Shown here: positions 23,015-32,454 of the stretch, in pieces
How the letters are laid out: every line of letters begins with the position of its first letter
Numbering within the stretch: position 1 is the stretch's first letter
Assembly (NCBI GenBank): GCA_018004645.1
Contig: JAGNBV010000002.1
Coordinates: forward strand, 1 to 38,488
Origin: Bacteroidales bacterium
GTDB taxonomy: Bacteria; Bacteroidota; Bacteroidia; Bacteroidales; CAIWKO01
Length of the DNA stretch: 38,488 nucleotides
Direction: 5' to 3'
The notes under the pieces: model-generated
The model's input: only the letters and a program-made list of their open reading frames with translations
What the model was told of the DNA's origin: nothing
Database searches by the model: none
Translations under genes and position numbers: made by a program

Positions 23015-23022
23015 TATACTTG
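23015..23022 (+). promoter_or_regulatory. Possible -7 box (TATACTTG) of the OPT transporter gene
   Basis: TATACTTG differs by one base from TAnnTTTG and lies 22 bp before the preferred ATG at 23044. No TTTG -33 box was found, so support is weak. Confidence 0.3.
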
Positions 23023-23043
23023 TACAAATTAATAATTCGGAAA

Positions 23044-25119
23044 ATGAGCGACACCAAGAAATTTATTCCTTTTGTTTCGGCCGAAACCAACATGAAAGAG
23101 TTTACCCTGAGGGCAGTATTGCTGGGTGTTTTGATGGCTATGATCATGGGTGCCGCTAATGCCTATCTGGGTTTAAAGGCCGGCATGACCATTGCGGCAA
23201 CCTATACAACGGCGGTGCTGGGAATGGCTGTACTGAAAGCTTTTAAAGGCACCATACTTGAAGAAAATGCCGCACGAACCATCGGCTCTATTGGCGGCAA
23301 CATTGCAACGGGAGCCATTTTTACGTTGCCTGCCTTTTTTATTGCTTCGGTATGGACACCGTTTTATTCGGTTTCGCACTATCTTATAGCCATTGTGATA
23401 CTTGCTTCCGCAGGTATCCTGGGCATTATGTTTACTACCTTGCTGCGCAGGGTGCTGGTTGAGGATGCCGACTTGCCGTTTCCCGAATCCGTGGCGGCGG
23501 CCGAGATACATAAATCGGGCAGGGGCGGATCGGGAGGATCAAAATTTTTGCTGTGGGGTATGGGCATTGGCGCATTCTTTACAGCTTTGGTAGAATTCAA
23601 AATTATTGCCGCCACCTGGCAGAAAATCGTTTCATTTTCAAAAGGCGCCATTTTGTTGCGTTCCCCTGGAATGGCCCCTGCGTATTTTGGTGTGGGTTAC
23701 ATCATCGGACCAAAACTCGGCGCTATTAACTTCAGCGGCGGACTGCTTGCCTGGGGCTTGATGGCACCGGTAATAGCTTACTTCATCAATTACAATGATG
23801 CCGCCGCAGTCAGCGACTGGGCTGTTGAAATAACGCGTGTATGGAAGGCTTATGTCCGGTACATTGCTATCGGGGGTATGCTCGTAGGATCGTTCTATAC
23901 CTTGTATAATATGCGCAAAAGCTTGTTCAGCGGCATACAGCGTTCGTTTGCCAACCTGAAAAAATCATCTGCAGATTCGGGACAACTCCTGCGCACCGAA
24001 AAAGATATTAATATGCGCTGGTCGTTGATAGTGATAGGTATCATCATGCTCATCATGTTTCTGGTGTTCCACTATTTTGCCGGCGATCCGATGGCTGCCG
24101 GTATTGCCACCATCGTGATGTTGTTCATGGGATTTGTGTTTGCTGCCGTTTCGGGCTATCTTGTCGGCATTATCGGCGTTAGCAACAATCCGACCAGCGG
24201 ACTTACTGTTTCGGTGCTGATCATAGCAGCTCTGTTGATGGTGGCGTTAGGCATGCGTGGCCAGGCGGGACTGGCTGCCGTGTTAGGCATTGCCGCATTC
24301 ACCTGTACATCGGTATCGGTGGCAGGGGAGATGATGCAGGATTTGAAAGCCGGCCATATTCTCGGGTGTACCCCTTGGCGTATGCAGCTCGGCGACGTGT
24401 TTGGCGTGGTGGCGGCATCGACAATTATGTTTCTTATTCTCACCCTGCTGCACCTTGGCGATATTAAAGATGTTGTCGGCAAAAAAATTGAAAAACTCGA
24501 AAGCGAAAACGTTACTGTGGTGCAATATCAGGGAGAAAACCCTGCATTAAAAAATTCAACCTATACGATAGCCGACATAAAAGCCATGTCACCGGAACAG
24601 CAAAACGATGTTTTGGCGGCCAATGCCGGTTTTGGCGGCGAAAAACTCCCCGCTCCGCAGGCAAGCCTCATGGCCGTGGTGGCTAAAGGTATTGTGGATA
24701 TGAAAATGGAACTTATTCTGATTATTGTGGGTATGTTTATGGGCATAGCGCTGATTTTAATGCAGGTAAAAAGCCCCATGCTCATCAGTGTGGGCATGTA
24801 TCTGCCCATTGATACGTCTTTCGCGATTTTCTTAGGCGGTGTCATGAAAGCTATTACAGACACCTATGTGAAAAAGAGGGGATACACTGAGGCGCAAAAA
24901 GAAAAAATTAATAACACCGGTGTCCTTCTGTCATCGGGACTGATTGCGGGAGAAGCGTTGATGGGACTGTTGTTTGCAGGCCTTGCTTTTGCCGAAATAA
25001 AGATGTTTAAAATGTTTGAAAACCCTTCTTTTTTGGGCAGCCTGATAGCGATGGGGATTATTGGCCTGGTGCTGATCAGATTTTCCTTAGGCGAAAAAAT
25101 TAATAATGTAAAAAAATAA
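23044..25119 (+). CDS. OPT family oligopeptide transporter
   Basis: A 691-aa polytopic membrane protein of about 15 hydrophobic segments. Its opening EFTLRAVLLGVLMAMIMGAA followed by NAYLGLKAGMTIAATYTTAV is the OPT-family signature, and later blocks include EENAARTIGSIGGN and VSNNPTSGLTVSVL. OPT proteins use the proton gradient to import small peptides or metal chelates. The open frame extends to a TTG at 23020, but the ATG at 23044 (MSDTKKFIPF) is the likely start because the TTG version adds eight non-conserved residues. A loop of about 70 residues (around 480-550) separates the last membrane bundles. The downstream cupin starts 5 bp later. The substrate is unproven; an Asp/Glu-releasing peptidase occurs upstream in the window. 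Confidence 0.92.
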   Translation: MSDTKKFIPFVSAETNMKEFTLRAVLLGVLMAMIMGAANAYLGLKAGMTIAATYTTAVLGMAVLKAFKGTILEENAARTIGSIGGNIATGAIFTLPAFFIASVWTPFYSVSHYLIAIVILASAGILGIMFTTLLRRVLVEDADLPFPESVAAAEIHKSGRGGSGGSKFLLWGMGIGAFFTALVEFKIIAATWQKIVSFSKGAILLRSPGMAPAYFGVGYIIGPKLGAINFSGGLLAWGLMAPVIAYFINYNDAAAVSDWAVEITRVWKAYVRYIAIGGMLVGSFYTLYNMRKSLFSGIQRSFANLKKSSADSGQLLRTEKDINMRWSLIVIGIIMLIMFLVFHYFAGDPMAAGIATIVMLFMGFVFAAVSGYLVGIIGVSNNPTSGLTVSVLIIAALLMVALGMRGQAGLAAVLGIAAFTCTSVSVAGEMMQDLKAGHILGCTPWRMQLGDVFGVVAASTIMFLILTLLHLGDIKDVVGKKIEKLESENVTVVQYQGENPALKNSTYTIADIKAMSPEQQNDVLAANAGFGGEKLPAPQASLMAVVAKGIVDMKMELILIIVGMFMGIALILMQVKSPMLISVGMYLPIDTSFAIFLGGVMKAITDTYVKKRGYTEAQKEKINNTGVLLSSGLIAGEALMGLLFAGLAFAEIKMFKMFENPSFLGSLIAMGIIGLVLIRFSLGEKINNVKK

Positions 25120-25124
25120 ATTTT

Positions 25125-25454
25125 ATGGAACCTAATGAACTGGAACGTGGGAAAGTTTTTTCCTTTCCCGAAATTGTCGATTACGCCGGTGGAGCTGTGG
25201 TGAGCCGCACCATTATCAAGAGACCTTTGGGTACTGTTACGGTTTTTTCTTTCGACAAAGGCGAAGGATTAAGCGAACATACGGCGGCTTTTGATGCGTT
25301 GGTGAATATAGTGGATGGCACCGCTGATATCATCATAAACGGCAAATCGAACATCCTGCATGCAGGGCAATTCATCATCATGCCGGCCAATATTCCGCAT
25401 GCCGTGAAAGCTGTGGAAAAGTTTAAAATGGTGCTGGTGATGATTAAAAGCTGA
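25125..25454 (+). CDS. Small cupin-domain protein
   Basis: A 109-aa single-domain cupin. Motif 1 is degenerate: GLSEHTAAFDALVNIVDG keeps only one His of the usual H-x-H pair. Motif 2 retains the Pro and His in IIMPANIPHAVKAV. Metal binding is therefore possible but incomplete, and the function may be ligand sensing rather than catalysis. The ATG follows the OPT stop by 5 bp, so the two form an operon. Similar cupins are common in Bacteroidota and have no established role. Confidence 0.85.
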   Translation: MEPNELERGKVFSFPEIVDYAGGAVVSRTIIKRPLGTVTVFSFDKGEGLSEHTAAFDALVNIVDGTADIIINGKSNILHAGQFIIMPANIPHAVKAVEKFKMVLVMIKS

Positions 25455-25536: not shown

Positions 25537-27267
25537 ATGTACAAAAAAAAACTGAGCAATAAATGGCTTAAATCGTCTGTTTTGGGCTGCCTGTGGGCAT
25601 CTGCCGAAATAGTACTGGGAAGCTTTTTACACAATCTGAAGATACCTTTCACGGGAAATATTTTGACGGCTATTGGCATTGTATTGTTGATTTCCGTTGC
25701 TCATATCTGGAAAGAAAAAGGATTGTTCTGGCGGTCGGGTATTGTCTGCGCCCTCATGAAATCCATATCGCCCAGCGCAGTGATCTTTGGTCCTATGATC
25801 GCCATTCTTACCGAAGCCCTTGCTATGGAGCTGGTAGTCCGCATTTTTCGCAGAAATATTTTTTCTTTTTTATTGGCAGGAATTTTTGCCATGGTGTCGA
25901 ACCTGATTTTTATCATATTTAATTATGTTATAATTTATGGCACCAGCATCCTTGACCTTTATAAAAACCTGACAGAATTTGCCACAAGGCAATTGCATTT
26001 ATCGGGTGATATTTATTGGATGCCTTTATTCCTGCTTATTTGTCTTTTTGTGTTTATGGGGCTTATCGCTGCCGTTTTCGGAATTTATATCGGCCGAAAA
26101 GCTGCTGCACAACCCGTAAAAACCGAAAGTCTTTCGGTGAAACAGGTGCTGGATATAAAATCAAAAAAACACGACACTTCCTTTGCTTTTTCATATTACT
26201 GGCTTGCTTTTAATATGGTGGCATTGATTGCTGTGCTGGCACTGATGAGTTTTACACCTTATTATTATTGGGTGTCAGCAGGATGTATAGTTTTGGCCGT
26301 GTGGTTTATTCGCTACAAACGCGCTCTCAGAATGCTTGCCAAGCCTACATTCTGGATTACATTTTTCCTGTTGACTATGATTTCTGCCTTTATTTTATAC
26401 GAATTAAAAAATTCTGAAAAAGGATTTGTTGACGGCATCCTGATAGGATTAGAAATGAATTTCAGGGCTTTGGTTGTTATCATAGGATTTATGGCTATAG
26501 GCACAGAATTGAGAAACCCCGGATTCAGAAAAATATTTGTCAATTCGAGGTTTTGGCAGTTGCCGCTGGCGCTGGAGGTTGCCTTTGATACGCTACCCCT
26601 TATGATTGCCAACCTGCCCCGTGTCAGGGATGTTTTCAAAAAACCCGCGGCGATATTTCGCATACTGGTTGCCCAGGCCGATTTCTGGCTCGAAAAAACA
26701 GAGTTGAAATTAAATGACAGAAAAAATGTAATCATTATCAGTGGTTCGGAAAAAACAGGAAAATCCACATTGTTGCAAAAAATCGTGGAATGTCTTGAGA
26801 TGAAACACCTTAAAGCAGGTGGGTTCCTGTCAACGTCGGTATTTGAAAACGGCCTGCACACGGGATATGACATTGTTGACCTGAAGGATTATTCAAAAAA
26901 GATTTTGTCCCGGATTTATGGCGATGAAACCATGGCTAAAGTAGGAACTTTTTATTTCAGACCTGATGGCATTGACTTTGGCAATGAGCTGTTAACATTG
27001 AAAAATTTAAGCCATGCCGATTTTGTTGTTATTGATGAAATAGGGCCATGGGAATTGAAAAACCAGGGATGGGCGAAGGGGTTGTCAAGCCTCGTCAGGT
27101 ATTGGGAAAAACCAATAATTTTGGTAGTCCGCGAAAGCATTGTGGACAAAGTCATTGAAAACTGGTCGCTCAAAGAACCGCTGATAGCTGATTCAAAAAA
27201 TTGCGATATAAATTTTATATGCAATCATGTAATTTCCATATTAAGATTGCAAAAAGTAGGAAGCTGA
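25537..27267 (+). CDS. ECF-like membrane protein fused to THEP1-type NTPase
   Basis: A 576-aa fusion. Residues about 1-190 contain five or six TM helices resembling a substrate-binding (S-like) membrane component. Residues about 215-380 contain further helices, then GLEMNFRALVVIIGFMAIGT and a cytoplasmic stretch with LPLMIANLPRVRDVF, resembling the EcfT/CbiQ coupling protein. Residues about 395-576 are a P-loop NTPase of the THEP1 (NTPase_1) family: Walker A GSEKTGKST (403-411), Walker B VVIDEIGPWEL (about 499-509), and the family-typical KAGGFLSTSVFENGLHTGYD. There is no ABC signature motif. It could be a single-chain transporter with an unusual NTPase, or an NTP-dependent sensor. The position just upstream of a molybdoenzyme operon suggests a link to molybdate, cofactor or precursor uptake; this is inference. 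Confidence 0.75.
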   Translation: MYKKKLSNKWLKSSVLGCLWASAEIVLGSFLHNLKIPFTGNILTAIGIVLLISVAHIWKEKGLFWRSGIVCALMKSISPSAVIFGPMIAILTEALAMELVVRIFRRNIFSFLLAGIFAMVSNLIFIIFNYVIIYGTSILDLYKNLTEFATRQLHLSGDIYWMPLFLLICLFVFMGLIAAVFGIYIGRKAAAQPVKTESLSVKQVLDIKSKKHDTSFAFSYYWLAFNMVALIAVLALMSFTPYYYWVSAGCIVLAVWFIRYKRALRMLAKPTFWITFFLLTMISAFILYELKNSEKGFVDGILIGLEMNFRALVVIIGFMAIGTELRNPGFRKIFVNSRFWQLPLALEVAFDTLPLMIANLPRVRDVFKKPAAIFRILVAQADFWLEKTELKLNDRKNVIIISGSEKTGKSTLLQKIVECLEMKHLKAGGFLSTSVFENGLHTGYDIVDLKDYSKKILSRIYGDETMAKVGTFYFRPDGIDFGNELLTLKNLSHADFVVIDEIGPWELKNQGWAKGLSSLVRYWEKPIILVVRESIVDKVIENWSLKEPLIADSKNCDINFICNHVISILRLQKVGS

Positions 27268-29050: not shown

Positions 29051-29491
29051 ATGACAAAAGATCGTGTTGCAGAAGCGCTCGAAATGTTTACAGCAGGTTT
29101 TCACTGTTCGCAATCCGTGTTCGCCGTGTTCAGCGAAGATTTCGGGGTGCCAAAAGAAACTGCCTTGAAGATTGCGTGCCCTTTTGGCGGAGGCCTGGGC
29201 GGATATGGCAGAACCTGTGGCGCCATTACCGGAGCCATGATGGTGCTTGGGCTGAGATATGGGTCAAGCGATCCGACTGATATTGAAACAAAGAGAATTT
29301 CGCGTGAAAAAACCCGTGCACTCATCGAAAGCTTTGAAAAGCAGCACTATTCCTGCAACTGCAATGACCTTGTGGGTTTTGACCGGAGCCAGCTCAGCGA
29401 TGCCGACCTGATGCTAAAGCTGCCTGTTTTCCATAATACTTGTGGGAAATTTCTGGAGACTGTTGTTGCATATCTTGAAGAAGAACTTTAA
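29051..29491 (+). CDS. C_GCAxxG_C_C family redox-type protein
   Basis: A 146-aa protein of the C_GCAxxG_C_C family. The first conserved Cys lies in AGFHCSQSVF. The central signature appears as GRTCGAITGAMMVLG (CGA-ITG in place of GCA-xxG), followed by the paired late cysteines in YSCNCNDLVGFD and HNTCGKFLE. The spaced cysteines suggest disulfide chemistry or metal/cluster binding; no enzymatic role is established. It lies 21 bp after the aldehyde dehydrogenase and 44 bp before the molybdoenzyme. I recall members of this family next to aldehyde oxidoreductases in Desulfovibrio (DVU1555-like), so a part in enzyme maturation or electron transfer is plausible. Confidence 0.85.
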   Translation: MTKDRVAEALEMFTAGFHCSQSVFAVFSEDFGVPKETALKIACPFGGGLGGYGRTCGAITGAMMVLGLRYGSSDPTDIETKRISREKTRALIESFEKQHYSCNCNDLVGFDRSQLSDADLMLKLPVFHNTCGKFLETVVAYLEEEL

Positions 29492-29535: not shown

Positions 29536-32454
29536 ATGAACCTTAGAAAAATGTGGCTCAATATTAACGGGGCAAATCGCTTATTAATTTGTAATCCTGA
29601 AAAGGATAGCCTTGCTGATGTAGTAAGGCGGATGGGCCTGACAGGTACCAAAGTGGGATGCGATGTTGGTGTTTGCGGGTCATGTTCAGTAATTTTAAAC
29701 GGAAAACTGGTACGCTCCTGTACAAAAAAAATGAAAAACATCGATGAGTACAGCTCGGTTCTGACCATAGAAGGTATCGGTACTCCATTAAATCTTCATC
29801 CCATTCAGGCGGCGTGGATTCATGCCGGCGCAGTACAGTGCGGTTTTTGTGTCCCGGGCTTTATAGTTTCGACATACGCCCTGCTCCACGAAAATGTGAA
29901 TCCCACACGCGAAGAAGTGCGCGACTGGTTTCAAAAAAATAAAAATGTTTGCCGTTGTACAGGTTATGTGCAGATTGTCGATGCAGTAATGCAGGCGGCA
30001 GCCGTGATGCGTGGAGAAAAAACCATGGATGACCTGTTGTTTAAAAAACCCGCTGATGGTGAATATTATGGTAAGCCGGTTCACCGCCCGTCAGCTTTGG
30101 CTAAAGTTTGCGGACTGGCAGATTATGGTGATGACCAGGAACTGAAAATGCCTTCCGAAAAATTGCATGTAGCTTTGGTTCAACCCCGAATAGCTCATCA
30201 TGCCAGGATTTTGAAAATTGATATGGACGAAGCATTGAAAATGCCCGGCATTGTGAAAATAGTAACAGCGCAGGATATCAAAGATGCCGGTGGAACCAAT
30301 ATTATGGCTGAAGGACATTTTCACGAACGTACAACCATTGCTGTACCTACACGTAATGTGCTTTGTGAAGATAAAATAAATCGCTGGGGCGATGTTGTGG
30401 CACTAGTTTGTGCCGATACCAAAGACCGCGCCCGGGCTGCAGCTGCTAAAGTTAAAGTGGAAATTGAAAAACTTCCTGAGTATCTTGGATACCTCGATGC
30501 TGCCATGCCGGATGCAATGCGTATTCATGAAGATACACCTAATATTTTTGCCATGCAGCCGGTGCTTAAAGGTGCCGGGCTGGAAGCCCCGCAGAAGGTA
30601 GCAGAAATAATTGATAAATCTGATTTTAAAGCAGAGGGTAGTTTTTTCTCTACCCGTGAGCCGCACCTTTCCATCGAAGGAGACTCTGTTCAGGCTTATT
30701 TCGACGAAGACGGATACCTTGCTATTCAATGCAAATCACAAGGCGTATATTCATCCGTTGGGCGCATCGGTAATTCTGTTGGACACCCCAAAGATAAAAT
30801 CAGGGTTATTTTGAACCCGACAGGAGCCAGCTTCGGCTGGTCAACCAATGCAGGTGACCTTTGCCTGGCAGCCGCTGCAGCCGTGGTAACTAAAATGCCT
30901 GTTGCCATGTCCATGAGTTACGAAGAACATCAGCATTTTTCAGGAAAACGCCGCCCATGCCATTCTAATGGTAAAGCAGCATGCGATAAAAACGGTAAAC
31001 TTACAGCTGTTGAAATGGAATTTGGCGTTGATCAGGGCGCTTATACTTTTGGCGGTGATGATGTGATTACCAAACAGGTTCGTTTCGGTTTTTTCCCATA
31101 TTCTATCCCGAATGTAGCGGGCCTTTCACGTATTGCCATCACCAATCATAATTTTGGAACGGCTTACCGCAGCTATGGTTCACCACAGGCTTATACCATG
31201 AGTGAAGCACTGATGGATATGCTGGCCGAAAAAGCAGGGATAGACCCCTTTGAATTCCGCTGGAGAAACATCGCCCGTGAAGGAGAAACGAATGTAAACA
31301 GTGTTCCTTTCAGGTTATATCCTATGGAAAAAATGATGGAAATGCTGAAGCCGTATTATGAAAAGGCCGTGAGAGAAGCTAAGGAAAAGGATACCCCCGA
31401 AGTCCGCAGAGGTGTTGGCCTGGCGTGGGGCGGATTTAATGTTTCAGAAGGCCCGACTGATAATGCTACAGTCAGGCTGCAGTTGAATCCTGACAATACT
31501 ATAACCAAATTTGACACCTGGCAGGATCTCGGTCAGGGAGGCGACATTGGCTCGTTGATGGTTGCCCTGGAAGCCCTCAAACCATTAAAACTGACTCCGG
31601 AGCAGATTAAACTCGTGCAGAGCGATACCAAAGAATGCCCTGACAGCGGAATGTCGGCAGGAAGCCGCTCCCATTACATGAATGGCCATGCAACAATAAT
31701 TGCGGCAGAAAAATTAATGGCAGCCATGAAGAAACCGGATGGCACTTTCAGAAACTATGATGAAATGGTAAAAGAGAACATTCCAACCGTGTATGAAGGA
31801 AAATTTTCAAATATCGTTACTCCAGGACTGAGCCGTCTTGACCCCAATACCGGTATTGGCGATCCCACACCAGCATTCACCTATGCGCTTAATATGGCAG
31901 AAGTTGCTGTTGATACCAAAACGGGAAAGACTACAGTCACCCGCTTTGTGTGTGTCTCCGATGTCGGCAAGATTGGAAATAAAGATGCAGTGGATGGACA
32001 GGCATACGGCGGTATTTCGCATAGTATCGGATTTGCACTTTCGGAAGATTACGAAGATGTAAAAAAACATACCAACATAGCTTCCAGCGGCGTACCATAC
32101 ATTAAGGACATTCCCGATGAAATCATTTTATTATACCACGAGAGTGACGATAAAACCGGGCCTTTCGGCTCTTCGGGAGCTTCGGAAGCATTTCAGGCAT
32201 CAGGCCATGTGGCTGTGATCAATGCTATCTATAATGCCTGCGGCGTCAGAATCTATGAATTGCCGGCAACTAAGGAAAAAGTAAAGGCCGGTTTGGAAAT
32301 TCTGGCAAAAGGCGGTAAGATAGAACCTCCAAAAAAATATTACCTTGGCCCGGATATGTATGATGAATTGGAAAATATTCTGGCTAATCCTGTGCCTTAT
32401 GGCGGAATAGATTATTTTAAACCTCTTGGAGGGGCAGGAGAAAGATTTTTCTAA
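29536..32454 (+). CDS. Molybdopterin-dependent aldehyde oxidoreductase (MOP type, xanthine oxidase family)
   Basis: A 972-aa single-chain enzyme closely matching the architecture of Desulfovibrio gigas MOP (907 aa), which oxidises aldehydes to carboxylic acids with water. The first [2Fe-2S] cluster has Cys42, 47, 50 and 62; the second has Cys102, 105, 139 and 141 in CGFC and CRCTG. All are shifted by two from D. gigas. The Moco domains include SREPHLSIEGDS-type sequence (TREPHLSIEGDS), NPTGASFGWSTNAG, AYRSYGSPQAY and FGSSGASEAFQAS with catalytic Glu884. No FAD domain is present, so electrons must leave via the clusters to a partner, perhaps the next gene product. There is a C-terminal extension of about 50 residues (ILAKGGKIEPPKKYYLGPDM onward). 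No signal peptide is present, so it is cytoplasmic. A Shine-Dalgarno site precedes it. Confidence 0.95.
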   Translation: MNLRKMWLNINGANRLLICNPEKDSLADVVRRMGLTGTKVGCDVGVCGSCSVILNGKLVRSCTKKMKNIDEYSSVLTIEGIGTPLNLHPIQAAWIHAGAVQCGFCVPGFIVSTYALLHENVNPTREEVRDWFQKNKNVCRCTGYVQIVDAVMQAAAVMRGEKTMDDLLFKKPADGEYYGKPVHRPSALAKVCGLADYGDDQELKMPSEKLHVALVQPRIAHHARILKIDMDEALKMPGIVKIVTAQDIKDAGGTNIMAEGHFHERTTIAVPTRNVLCEDKINRWGDVVALVCADTKDRARAAAAKVKVEIEKLPEYLGYLDAAMPDAMRIHEDTPNIFAMQPVLKGAGLEAPQKVAEIIDKSDFKAEGSFFSTREPHLSIEGDSVQAYFDEDGYLAIQCKSQGVYSSVGRIGNSVGHPKDKIRVILNPTGASFGWSTNAGDLCLAAAAAVVTKMPVAMSMSYEEHQHFSGKRRPCHSNGKAACDKNGKLTAVEMEFGVDQGAYTFGGDDVITKQVRFGFFPYSIPNVAGLSRIAITNHNFGTAYRSYGSPQAYTMSEALMDMLAEKAGIDPFEFRWRNIAREGETNVNSVPFRLYPMEKMMEMLKPYYEKAVREAKEKDTPEVRRGVGLAWGGFNVSEGPTDNATVRLQLNPDNTITKFDTWQDLGQGGDIGSLMVALEALKPLKLTPEQIKLVQSDTKECPDSGMSAGSRSHYMNGHATIIAAEKLMAAMKKPDGTFRNYDEMVKENIPTVYEGKFSNIVTPGLSRLDPNTGIGDPTPAFTYALNMAEVAVDTKTGKTTVTRFVCVSDVGKIGNKDAVDGQAYGGISHSIGFALSEDYEDVKKHTNIASSGVPYIKDIPDEIILLYHESDDKTGPFGSSGASEAFQASGHVAVINAIYNACGVRIYELPATKEKVKAGLEILAKGGKIEPPKKYYLGPDMYDELENILANPVPYGGIDYFKPLGGAGERFF

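Follow-up and report, generated by a model that had tools for sequence, protein, structure and literature searches.

A single-chain membrane protein with an S-component-like part and a THEP1 domain, and its possible role in molybdenum cofactor uptake in Bacteroidales

Results

Genes at the locus

The window analysed here is a stretch of 38,488 nt from a Bacteroidales bacterium (assembly GCA_018004645.1, JAGNBV010000002.1:1-38,488, forward strand). On its plus strand, positions 25,537-27,267 form an intact open reading frame with an ATG start that encodes 576 aa, and sequence, Pfam, conservation and AlphaFold2 together described it as a single chain of an S-like part, a second membrane part and a THEP1 domain. 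That it is a chance frame can be dismissed, since a genome contig search confirmed at least 541 relatives of the protein and 15 residues of the membrane part do not vary among 51 sequences.

All of the neighbouring genes listed here lie on the same strand. Directly upstream is a Cupin_2 protein (25,125-25,454, Pfam), preceded by a probably unrelated OPT-family transporter (23,020-25,119, Pfam and NCBIfam), and neither is recurrent near homologues. Downstream are an aldehyde dehydrogenase matching the L-piperidine-6-carboxylate dehydrogenase model NF050084 (27,479-29,029, NCBIfam), a C_GCAxxG_C_C protein (29,051-29,491, Pfam and NCBIfam) and a molybdopterin-dependent Mop aldehyde oxidoreductase (29,536-32,454, Pfam and NCBIfam; NF045668, 1166 bits), which is a likely client of the cofactor. 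NCBIfam models then identified a pyridine nucleotide-disulfide oxidoreductase/dicluster-binding protein (NF045663, 32,464-34,698), a TrsS radical SAM protein (NF045646, 34,866-36,191), a DVU_1556-family methyltransferase (NF045667, 36,158-36,820) and a DVU_1553-family AMP-dependent CoA ligase (NF045666, 36,817-38,037). The molybdoenzyme operon that the original prediction had placed after the gene is therefore real, and the same Mop-type aldehyde oxidoreductase operon adjoins the gene in a second genome, G179. No riboswitch or any other Rfam match turned up within the window, and XdhC and MobA were not found further along the contig, at 37.5-52 kb.

Domain architecture of the protein

The THEP1 (NTPase_1) domain occupies residues 395-576 (26,719-27,264). 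Residues 399-541 matched Pfam NTPase_1/THEP1 (PF03266) with E = 1.2e-21 and 77.8 bits against a cut-off of 23.9, a profile of the domain found 1ye8 (E 2.6e-17) and 2i3b (E 2.8e-13) in the PDB, and Foldseek gave a fold match to 2i3b (E 1.7e-5). The sequence contains a Walker A motif, GSEKTGKS (residues 403-410, 26,743-26,766), and a Walker B motif, DEIGPWE (residues 500-506, 27,034-27,054), and G408, K409, D500, E501, G503, E506 and R532 are invariant in 51 homologues. A LSGGQ-like string occurred in only 3 of the 114 fused homologues, and the Pfam match to MobB was weak (E 0.17 versus 1.2e-21 for NTPase_1). Judged by sequence, the domain belongs to the THEP1/NTPase_1 family and is neither an ABC ATPase nor MobB, so both the Walker motifs and the missing ABC signature had been predicted correctly. 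Since the NTPase motifs are intact, the domain is predicted to hydrolyse NTP.

Residues 1-390 matched no family in Pfam or NCBIfam. The AlphaFold2 model of the full-length protein was confident (pLDDT 89, pTM 0.81) and placed long helices in residues 8-191, which make six membrane helices and a loop helix, followed by a disordered linker (200-213), further long helices (220-392) and an alpha/beta domain (398-575). When the full-length model was searched with Foldseek, THEP1 was the sole match, so the S-like part was modelled alone. This six-helix part (residues 1-196, 25,537-26,124) reached pLDDT 91, and its best PDB match was the ECF S-component 5edl (probability 1.00, TM 0.59/0.58), and further matches were TmRibU (0.91) and chain S of 4hzu (0.66); the Foldseek E-values were non-significant (best 0.076), and its sequence profile had no meaningful match in the PDB. 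One face of helix 1 is invariant (W20-E24-G28-H32-N33), as are K75, P79-S80 and P86, and the same helix carries a conserved small-xxx-small pattern, A13-G17-A21. The modelled structure supports an S-component fold for the N-terminal part, in agreement with the original prediction.

The second helical membrane part (residues 214-394, 26,176-26,718, delimited by AlphaFold2) has W273, R310, F318 and P354 as invariant residues (alignment A4). It had been described as EcfT/CbiQ-like, which our data make suggestive only: the layout agrees, and in hhalign CbiQ beat four control families, but the E-value of 0.056 was non-significant in this one-profile comparison with only five CbiQ sequences, Pfam gave no CbiQ match, and the profile of this part had no match in the PDB. 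An AR[GS] motif was present in 4 of 130 homologues, and the order's own CbiQ proteins had it in just 1 of 5 cases, so the missing ARG motif was dropped as an argument on EcfT. EcfT/CbiQ (PF02361) itself was found in only 11 of 99 genomes searched.

Fused and split forms in the order

Among the best 80 of the at least 541 relatives, nearly all were from Bacteroidota, and one record was labelled Candidatus Methylomirabilis. We surveyed 198 genomes of the same order as the source, and the membrane part was carried by 62 of them, with G040 and G044 counted from pieces at contig ends only. THEP1 and the membrane part were in one chain in 114 of 130 collected homologues. Where the membrane part was split off, a separate THEP1 was present in 14 of 15 genomes, versus 7 of 136 genomes that lack this part (p = 8e-14), and this co-occurrence supports the membrane part and THEP1 as a probable functional unit. 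Four of these seven (G019, G121, G131 and G110) were found by more sensitive searches to hold S-like proteins, which means that the true carrier count is slightly higher than 62. G019 and G121 encode stand-alone S-like proteins that share the helix-1 pattern W-xxx-E-xxx-G-xxx-H with the fused form, and in both genomes THEP1 is present while the second membrane part was not detected.

Molybdenum genes beside the homologues

Among neighbours of the homologues, DUF364, MobA, THEP1, XdhC, TonB receptor, ModE-like, MoeA, MogA and NarG were verified by Pfam or NCBIfam, and the others were assigned from representative sequences. The commonest neighbour was DUF364, a family without known function, as are its solved relatives 3npg and 3l5o; DUF364/DUF4213 lay directly upstream of the fused form at 46 loci (for example L031:8346-9155), mostly overlapping it by a few bases. 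The gene directly upstream was MobA at 8 of 16 loci with the split form and at 3 of 114 with the fused one. XdhC, a Psr/Phs operon and a TonB receptor were each found near the gene at 10 loci, and a ModE-like repressor at 9 loci (TIGR00637, 5.8e-22). The ModE-like HTH protein is short and lacks a molybdate-binding domain (L040:949-1305 and 8 other loci).

Several gene rows combined these elements. G020 has a TonB receptor, DUF364, the fusion and then MoeA and MogA directly downstream, and in G040 THEP1, MobA and the membrane gene adjoin one another. The row of G131 (L183:2988-8523) contains THEP1, an S-like protein, an XdhC-MocA fusion, a ferredoxin-type subunit and a xanthine-dehydrogenase-type Mo subunit. 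G019 (L156:5110-16518) has an S-like protein, MobA, an MFS-type transporter (probably for nitrate), NarG (1857 bits to TIGR01580), NarH, NarJ, NarI, a TonB receptor and THEP1, and G121 (L157:6003-14359) likewise has a stand-alone S-like gene with MobA, NarGHJI and THEP1; both genomes are 99% complete and are without MoaA, MoaC and MoeA. THEP1 is even fused to MobA in G075 (L180:6907-8088) and G179 (L181:6814-7977), with the NTPase at about residues 8-180 and MobA at about 192-381. Beside the G179 fusion there is a shortened second S-like copy of 163 aa (L181:6330-6818).

No EcfA gene was recognised among the recurrent neighbours, and a periplasmic oxyanion-binding protein with an ABC ATPase (ModABC/WtpABC) was absent from the protein and not recurrent beside the gene. 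The neighbour survey, which the original prediction had called for, tied the homologues to molybdenum genes and TonB receptors, and we consider the molybdenum link of the family strong. Homologues unconnected with cofactor or metal genes would have refuted the prediction, and the survey showed the opposite.

Cofactor synthesis and molybdoenzymes in carrier genomes

The 198 genomes were searched for MoaC, the C-terminal domain of MoaA (PF06463) and MoeA. PF06463 scores were low, as MoaA here is short (about 266 aa), and MoaC gave a nearly identical answer. MoaA or MoaC was present in 43 of the 62 carriers and neither in 19, apparent cofactor auxotrophs that belong to 14 families and of which 12 are at least 95% complete. 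G040 and G044, with their contig-end pieces, are among these 19. These counts are uncorrected for phylogeny beyond noting the 14 families, and since most or all of the surveyed carriers are MAGs, some gene absences may be assembly gaps. Non-carriers without MoaA and MoaC served for comparison (87 MoaC-negative genomes, reduced to 86 by leaving out G193, which has MoaA). PF00384 molybdopterin oxidoreductases were found in all 19 carriers without MoaA/MoaC versus 15 of these 86 non-carriers (Fisher p = 5e-12), and 9 of the 19 also have xanthine-dehydrogenase-type enzymes. A strong PF00384 match occurred in only 6 of the 86, and three of these six (G011, G019 and G121) have THEP1 with nitrate reductase.

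Other genes were also missing from most of the 19 genomes. MoeA was absent from 16 and kept in G020, G031 and G134. Of the 43 carriers with MoaA or MoaC, 34 had ModA/WtpA (E<1e-15), versus 4 of the 19 carriers with neither (p = 3e-5); the search used PF13531, which does not reach TupA, so TupA-type uptake is uncounted in these figures. MobA (E<1e-30) was present in 17 of the 19, with no clear match in G012 and G155, versus 1 of 20 non-carriers that have neither MoaC nor PF00384. The source genome has MoaA and MoeA, and MoaC is missing from its 93%-complete assembly.

Nitrogenase was considered as the molybdenum need of carriers without MoaC and rejected, because NifH genomes and carriers do not overlap: true NifH was found in 15 genomes of the order (G029, G037, G042, G064, G078, G091, G096, G118, G123, G132, G143, G151, G165, G182 and G197), and the membrane part in none of them.

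Discussion

A possible uptake system for ready-made Moco

We propose that the protein may be the inner-membrane component of a system that takes up molybdenum cofactor (Moco) in finished form, most likely Mo-loaded molybdopterin (Mo-MPT), a proposal we hold at an even balance of belief and doubt. That the substrate is a Mo-pterin cofactor seems slightly favoured, and if the protein is a transporter, the chances that THEP1 is its energiser are about equal either way. The full reading, in which intact Moco is imported by a TonB receptor, an S-type membrane protein and THEP1 in place of ABC ATPases, and this let many Bacteroidota drop Moco synthesis while keeping their molybdoenzymes, is tentative and falls a little short of an even chance. 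In such a system, a TonB-dependent receptor would carry the cofactor over the outer membrane, and the S-like part, whose fold is supported by the model, would bind it and move it inward with the second membrane part. On the cytosolic face the THEP1 domain, with its complete set of motifs, would bind and split NTP and so drive movement or release, possibly handing the cofactor to MobA. MobA would then add GMP, or XdhC/MocA would process the cofactor, before it reaches the molybdoenzymes; these enzymes and their linkage to the gene were found directly, and their order is our suggestion. Genomes with de novo synthesis would use the protein for salvage, and it would be indispensable where MoaA, MoaC, MoeA and molybdate uptake have gone.

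The presence and absence of genes fit import of Mo-loaded Moco better than import of molybdate, cPMP or a vitamin. As 34 of the 43 synthesis-capable carriers have ModA/WtpA, the protein is not simply a substitute for molybdate uptake, and as 16 of 19 carriers without MoaA/MoaC lack MoeA, most of them could not insert molybdenum. MoeA and ModA/WtpA are mostly absent while MobA is mostly kept, which suggests from this pattern that the cofactor would enter after molybdenum insertion and before GMP addition. The TonB receptors near the gene fit a molecule larger than molybdate. Given the THEP1-MobA fusions, THEP1 may drive import, pass the cofactor on in the manner of MobB, or do both. Against import of Moco, 4 of the 19 keep ModA/WtpA and 3 keep MoeA, and such cells would need a supply of extracellular Moco, which is regarded as unstable (PMC9793310).

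Alternative explanations

The original prediction proposed molybdate/tungstate or a cofactor precursor as substrate, and its molybdenum link stands, but the survey speaks for a pterin cofactor that contains molybdenum rather than for molybdate. In a molybdate/tungstate importer, the S-like part would bind the oxyanion, THEP1 would energise transport and TonB receptors would bring in metal-chelate complexes; the general molybdenum linkage and the repressor genes at nine loci agree with this, and the conserved H32, N33, K75 and S78-P79-S80 could serve to bind an oxyanion. Yet molybdate is small enough to pass porins, so a TonB receptor is not needed for it, most synthesis-capable carriers already own ModA/WtpA, 15 of the 19 carriers without MoaA/MoaC lack it and could make no use of molybdate without molybdopterin, and none of the 15 NifH genomes carries the protein, so we consider this importer unlikely. 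An early intermediate (cPMP or metal-free molybdopterin) as the imported compound would suit the three genomes that have MoeA without MoaA and MoaC, but with MoeA missing from 16 of 19 and ModA/WtpA from 15 of 19, most could not finish an unmetallated precursor, which makes it very improbable. We give equally little credence to a vitamin-type transporter or sensor without a direct molybdenum role, whose association with these genes would come from its host lineages respiring anaerobically: S-component folds are generic and the DUF364 and cupin neighbours have no known molybdenum role, but the gene directly adjoins MobA, XdhC, MoeA and ModE-like genes and THEP1-MobA fusions occur, and the enrichment of 19 out of 19 among MoaA/MoaC-negative genomes spans 14 families.

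A reading that overlaps with ours accepts Moco import and makes THEP1 a MobB-like adaptor that passes the cofactor to MobA, with the drive coming from trapping or another source. E. coli MobB is a GTP-binding accessory of MobA (PMC13197769), THEP1 fused to MobA takes the place of the known MobA-MobB arrangement, G040 has its membrane gene next to THEP1 and MobA, there is weak similarity to MobB, and in G019 and G121 S-like proteins go with THEP1 without a detected second membrane part. However, 114 of 130 homologues fuse THEP1 to the membrane part, the sequence is that of THEP1 and not MobB, and the NTPase motifs are intact, so we judge a pure adaptor doubtful. Finally, if the missing MoaA and MoaC were assembly gaps, the argument from auxotrophy would be void. 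The source genome shows one such gap, in MoaC, but 12 of the 19 genomes, from several families, have a completeness of 95% or more, a loss rate of 5% would predict such a gap in about 3 of 62 carriers where 19 were seen, and ModA/WtpA, a separate locus, is absent in 15 of 19 while MobA and molybdoenzymes were found, which leaves this explanation with a low probability.

Relation to known systems

The prevailing view is that cells needing Moco must make Moco (PMC9793310), and a bacterial Moco importer, if true, would overturn the view that Moco users must synthesise it. It would also reveal that anaerobes share the cofactor, account for molybdoenzymes in genomes that lack moaA and moaC, offer a lead for Moco delivery, and provide a membrane transporter that works with a THEP1 NTPase, from a family of poorly understood role, rather than with ABC ATPases. 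Our literature search found no bacterial Moco importer, and nothing specific that links the NTPase THEP1 to ECF transporters or to molybdenum. We rate the system as a whole as new in kind, with an S fold that it shares with known proteins; should the substrate prove to be another, we would still rate it as a novel form of S-component-type transport.

The nearest known relatives are ECF transporters, which likewise have an S-component fold, a small-xxx-small pattern in helix 1 (the AXXXA motif of S-components, PMC11109136, with which we compared A13-G17-A21), a second membrane part and a cytosolic NTPase. However, they consist of an S-component, EcfT and two EcfA ABC ATPases, whereas here THEP1 is in the same chain and there is no ABC ATPase; as the ABC ATPases are a defining ECF feature, we do not class the protein as an ECF transporter, though it may work like one. 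Solitary S-components are known, such as some BioY and BtuM (PMC11109136), and the stand-alone S-like proteins of G019, G121 and G131 resemble them but are accompanied by THEP1 with MobA or MocA. The domain is of the same family as THEP1/NTPCR (Aq_1292, 1ye8; human, 2i3b) by profile and fold, but those proteins are soluble, whereas the present THEP1 shares a chain with a membrane part or with MobA. MobB and MobA-MobB fusions also place a P-loop NTPase beside or in one chain with MobA; the difference is that the NTPase here is of the THEP1 family and mostly attached to a transporter-like membrane part. ModABC/WtpABC share the molybdenum supply and a ModE-like regulator, but there are no ABC parts here and the protein co-occurs with ModA/WtpA in Moco-making genomes. 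For the uptake of Moco itself, molybdopterin uptake has been suggested for some T11SS proteins (PMC12282271), and C. elegans takes up dietary Moco, no other organism having been observed to take up exogenous Moco (PMC9793310). As in the system proposed here, the worm, an animal, obtains ready-made Moco from outside.
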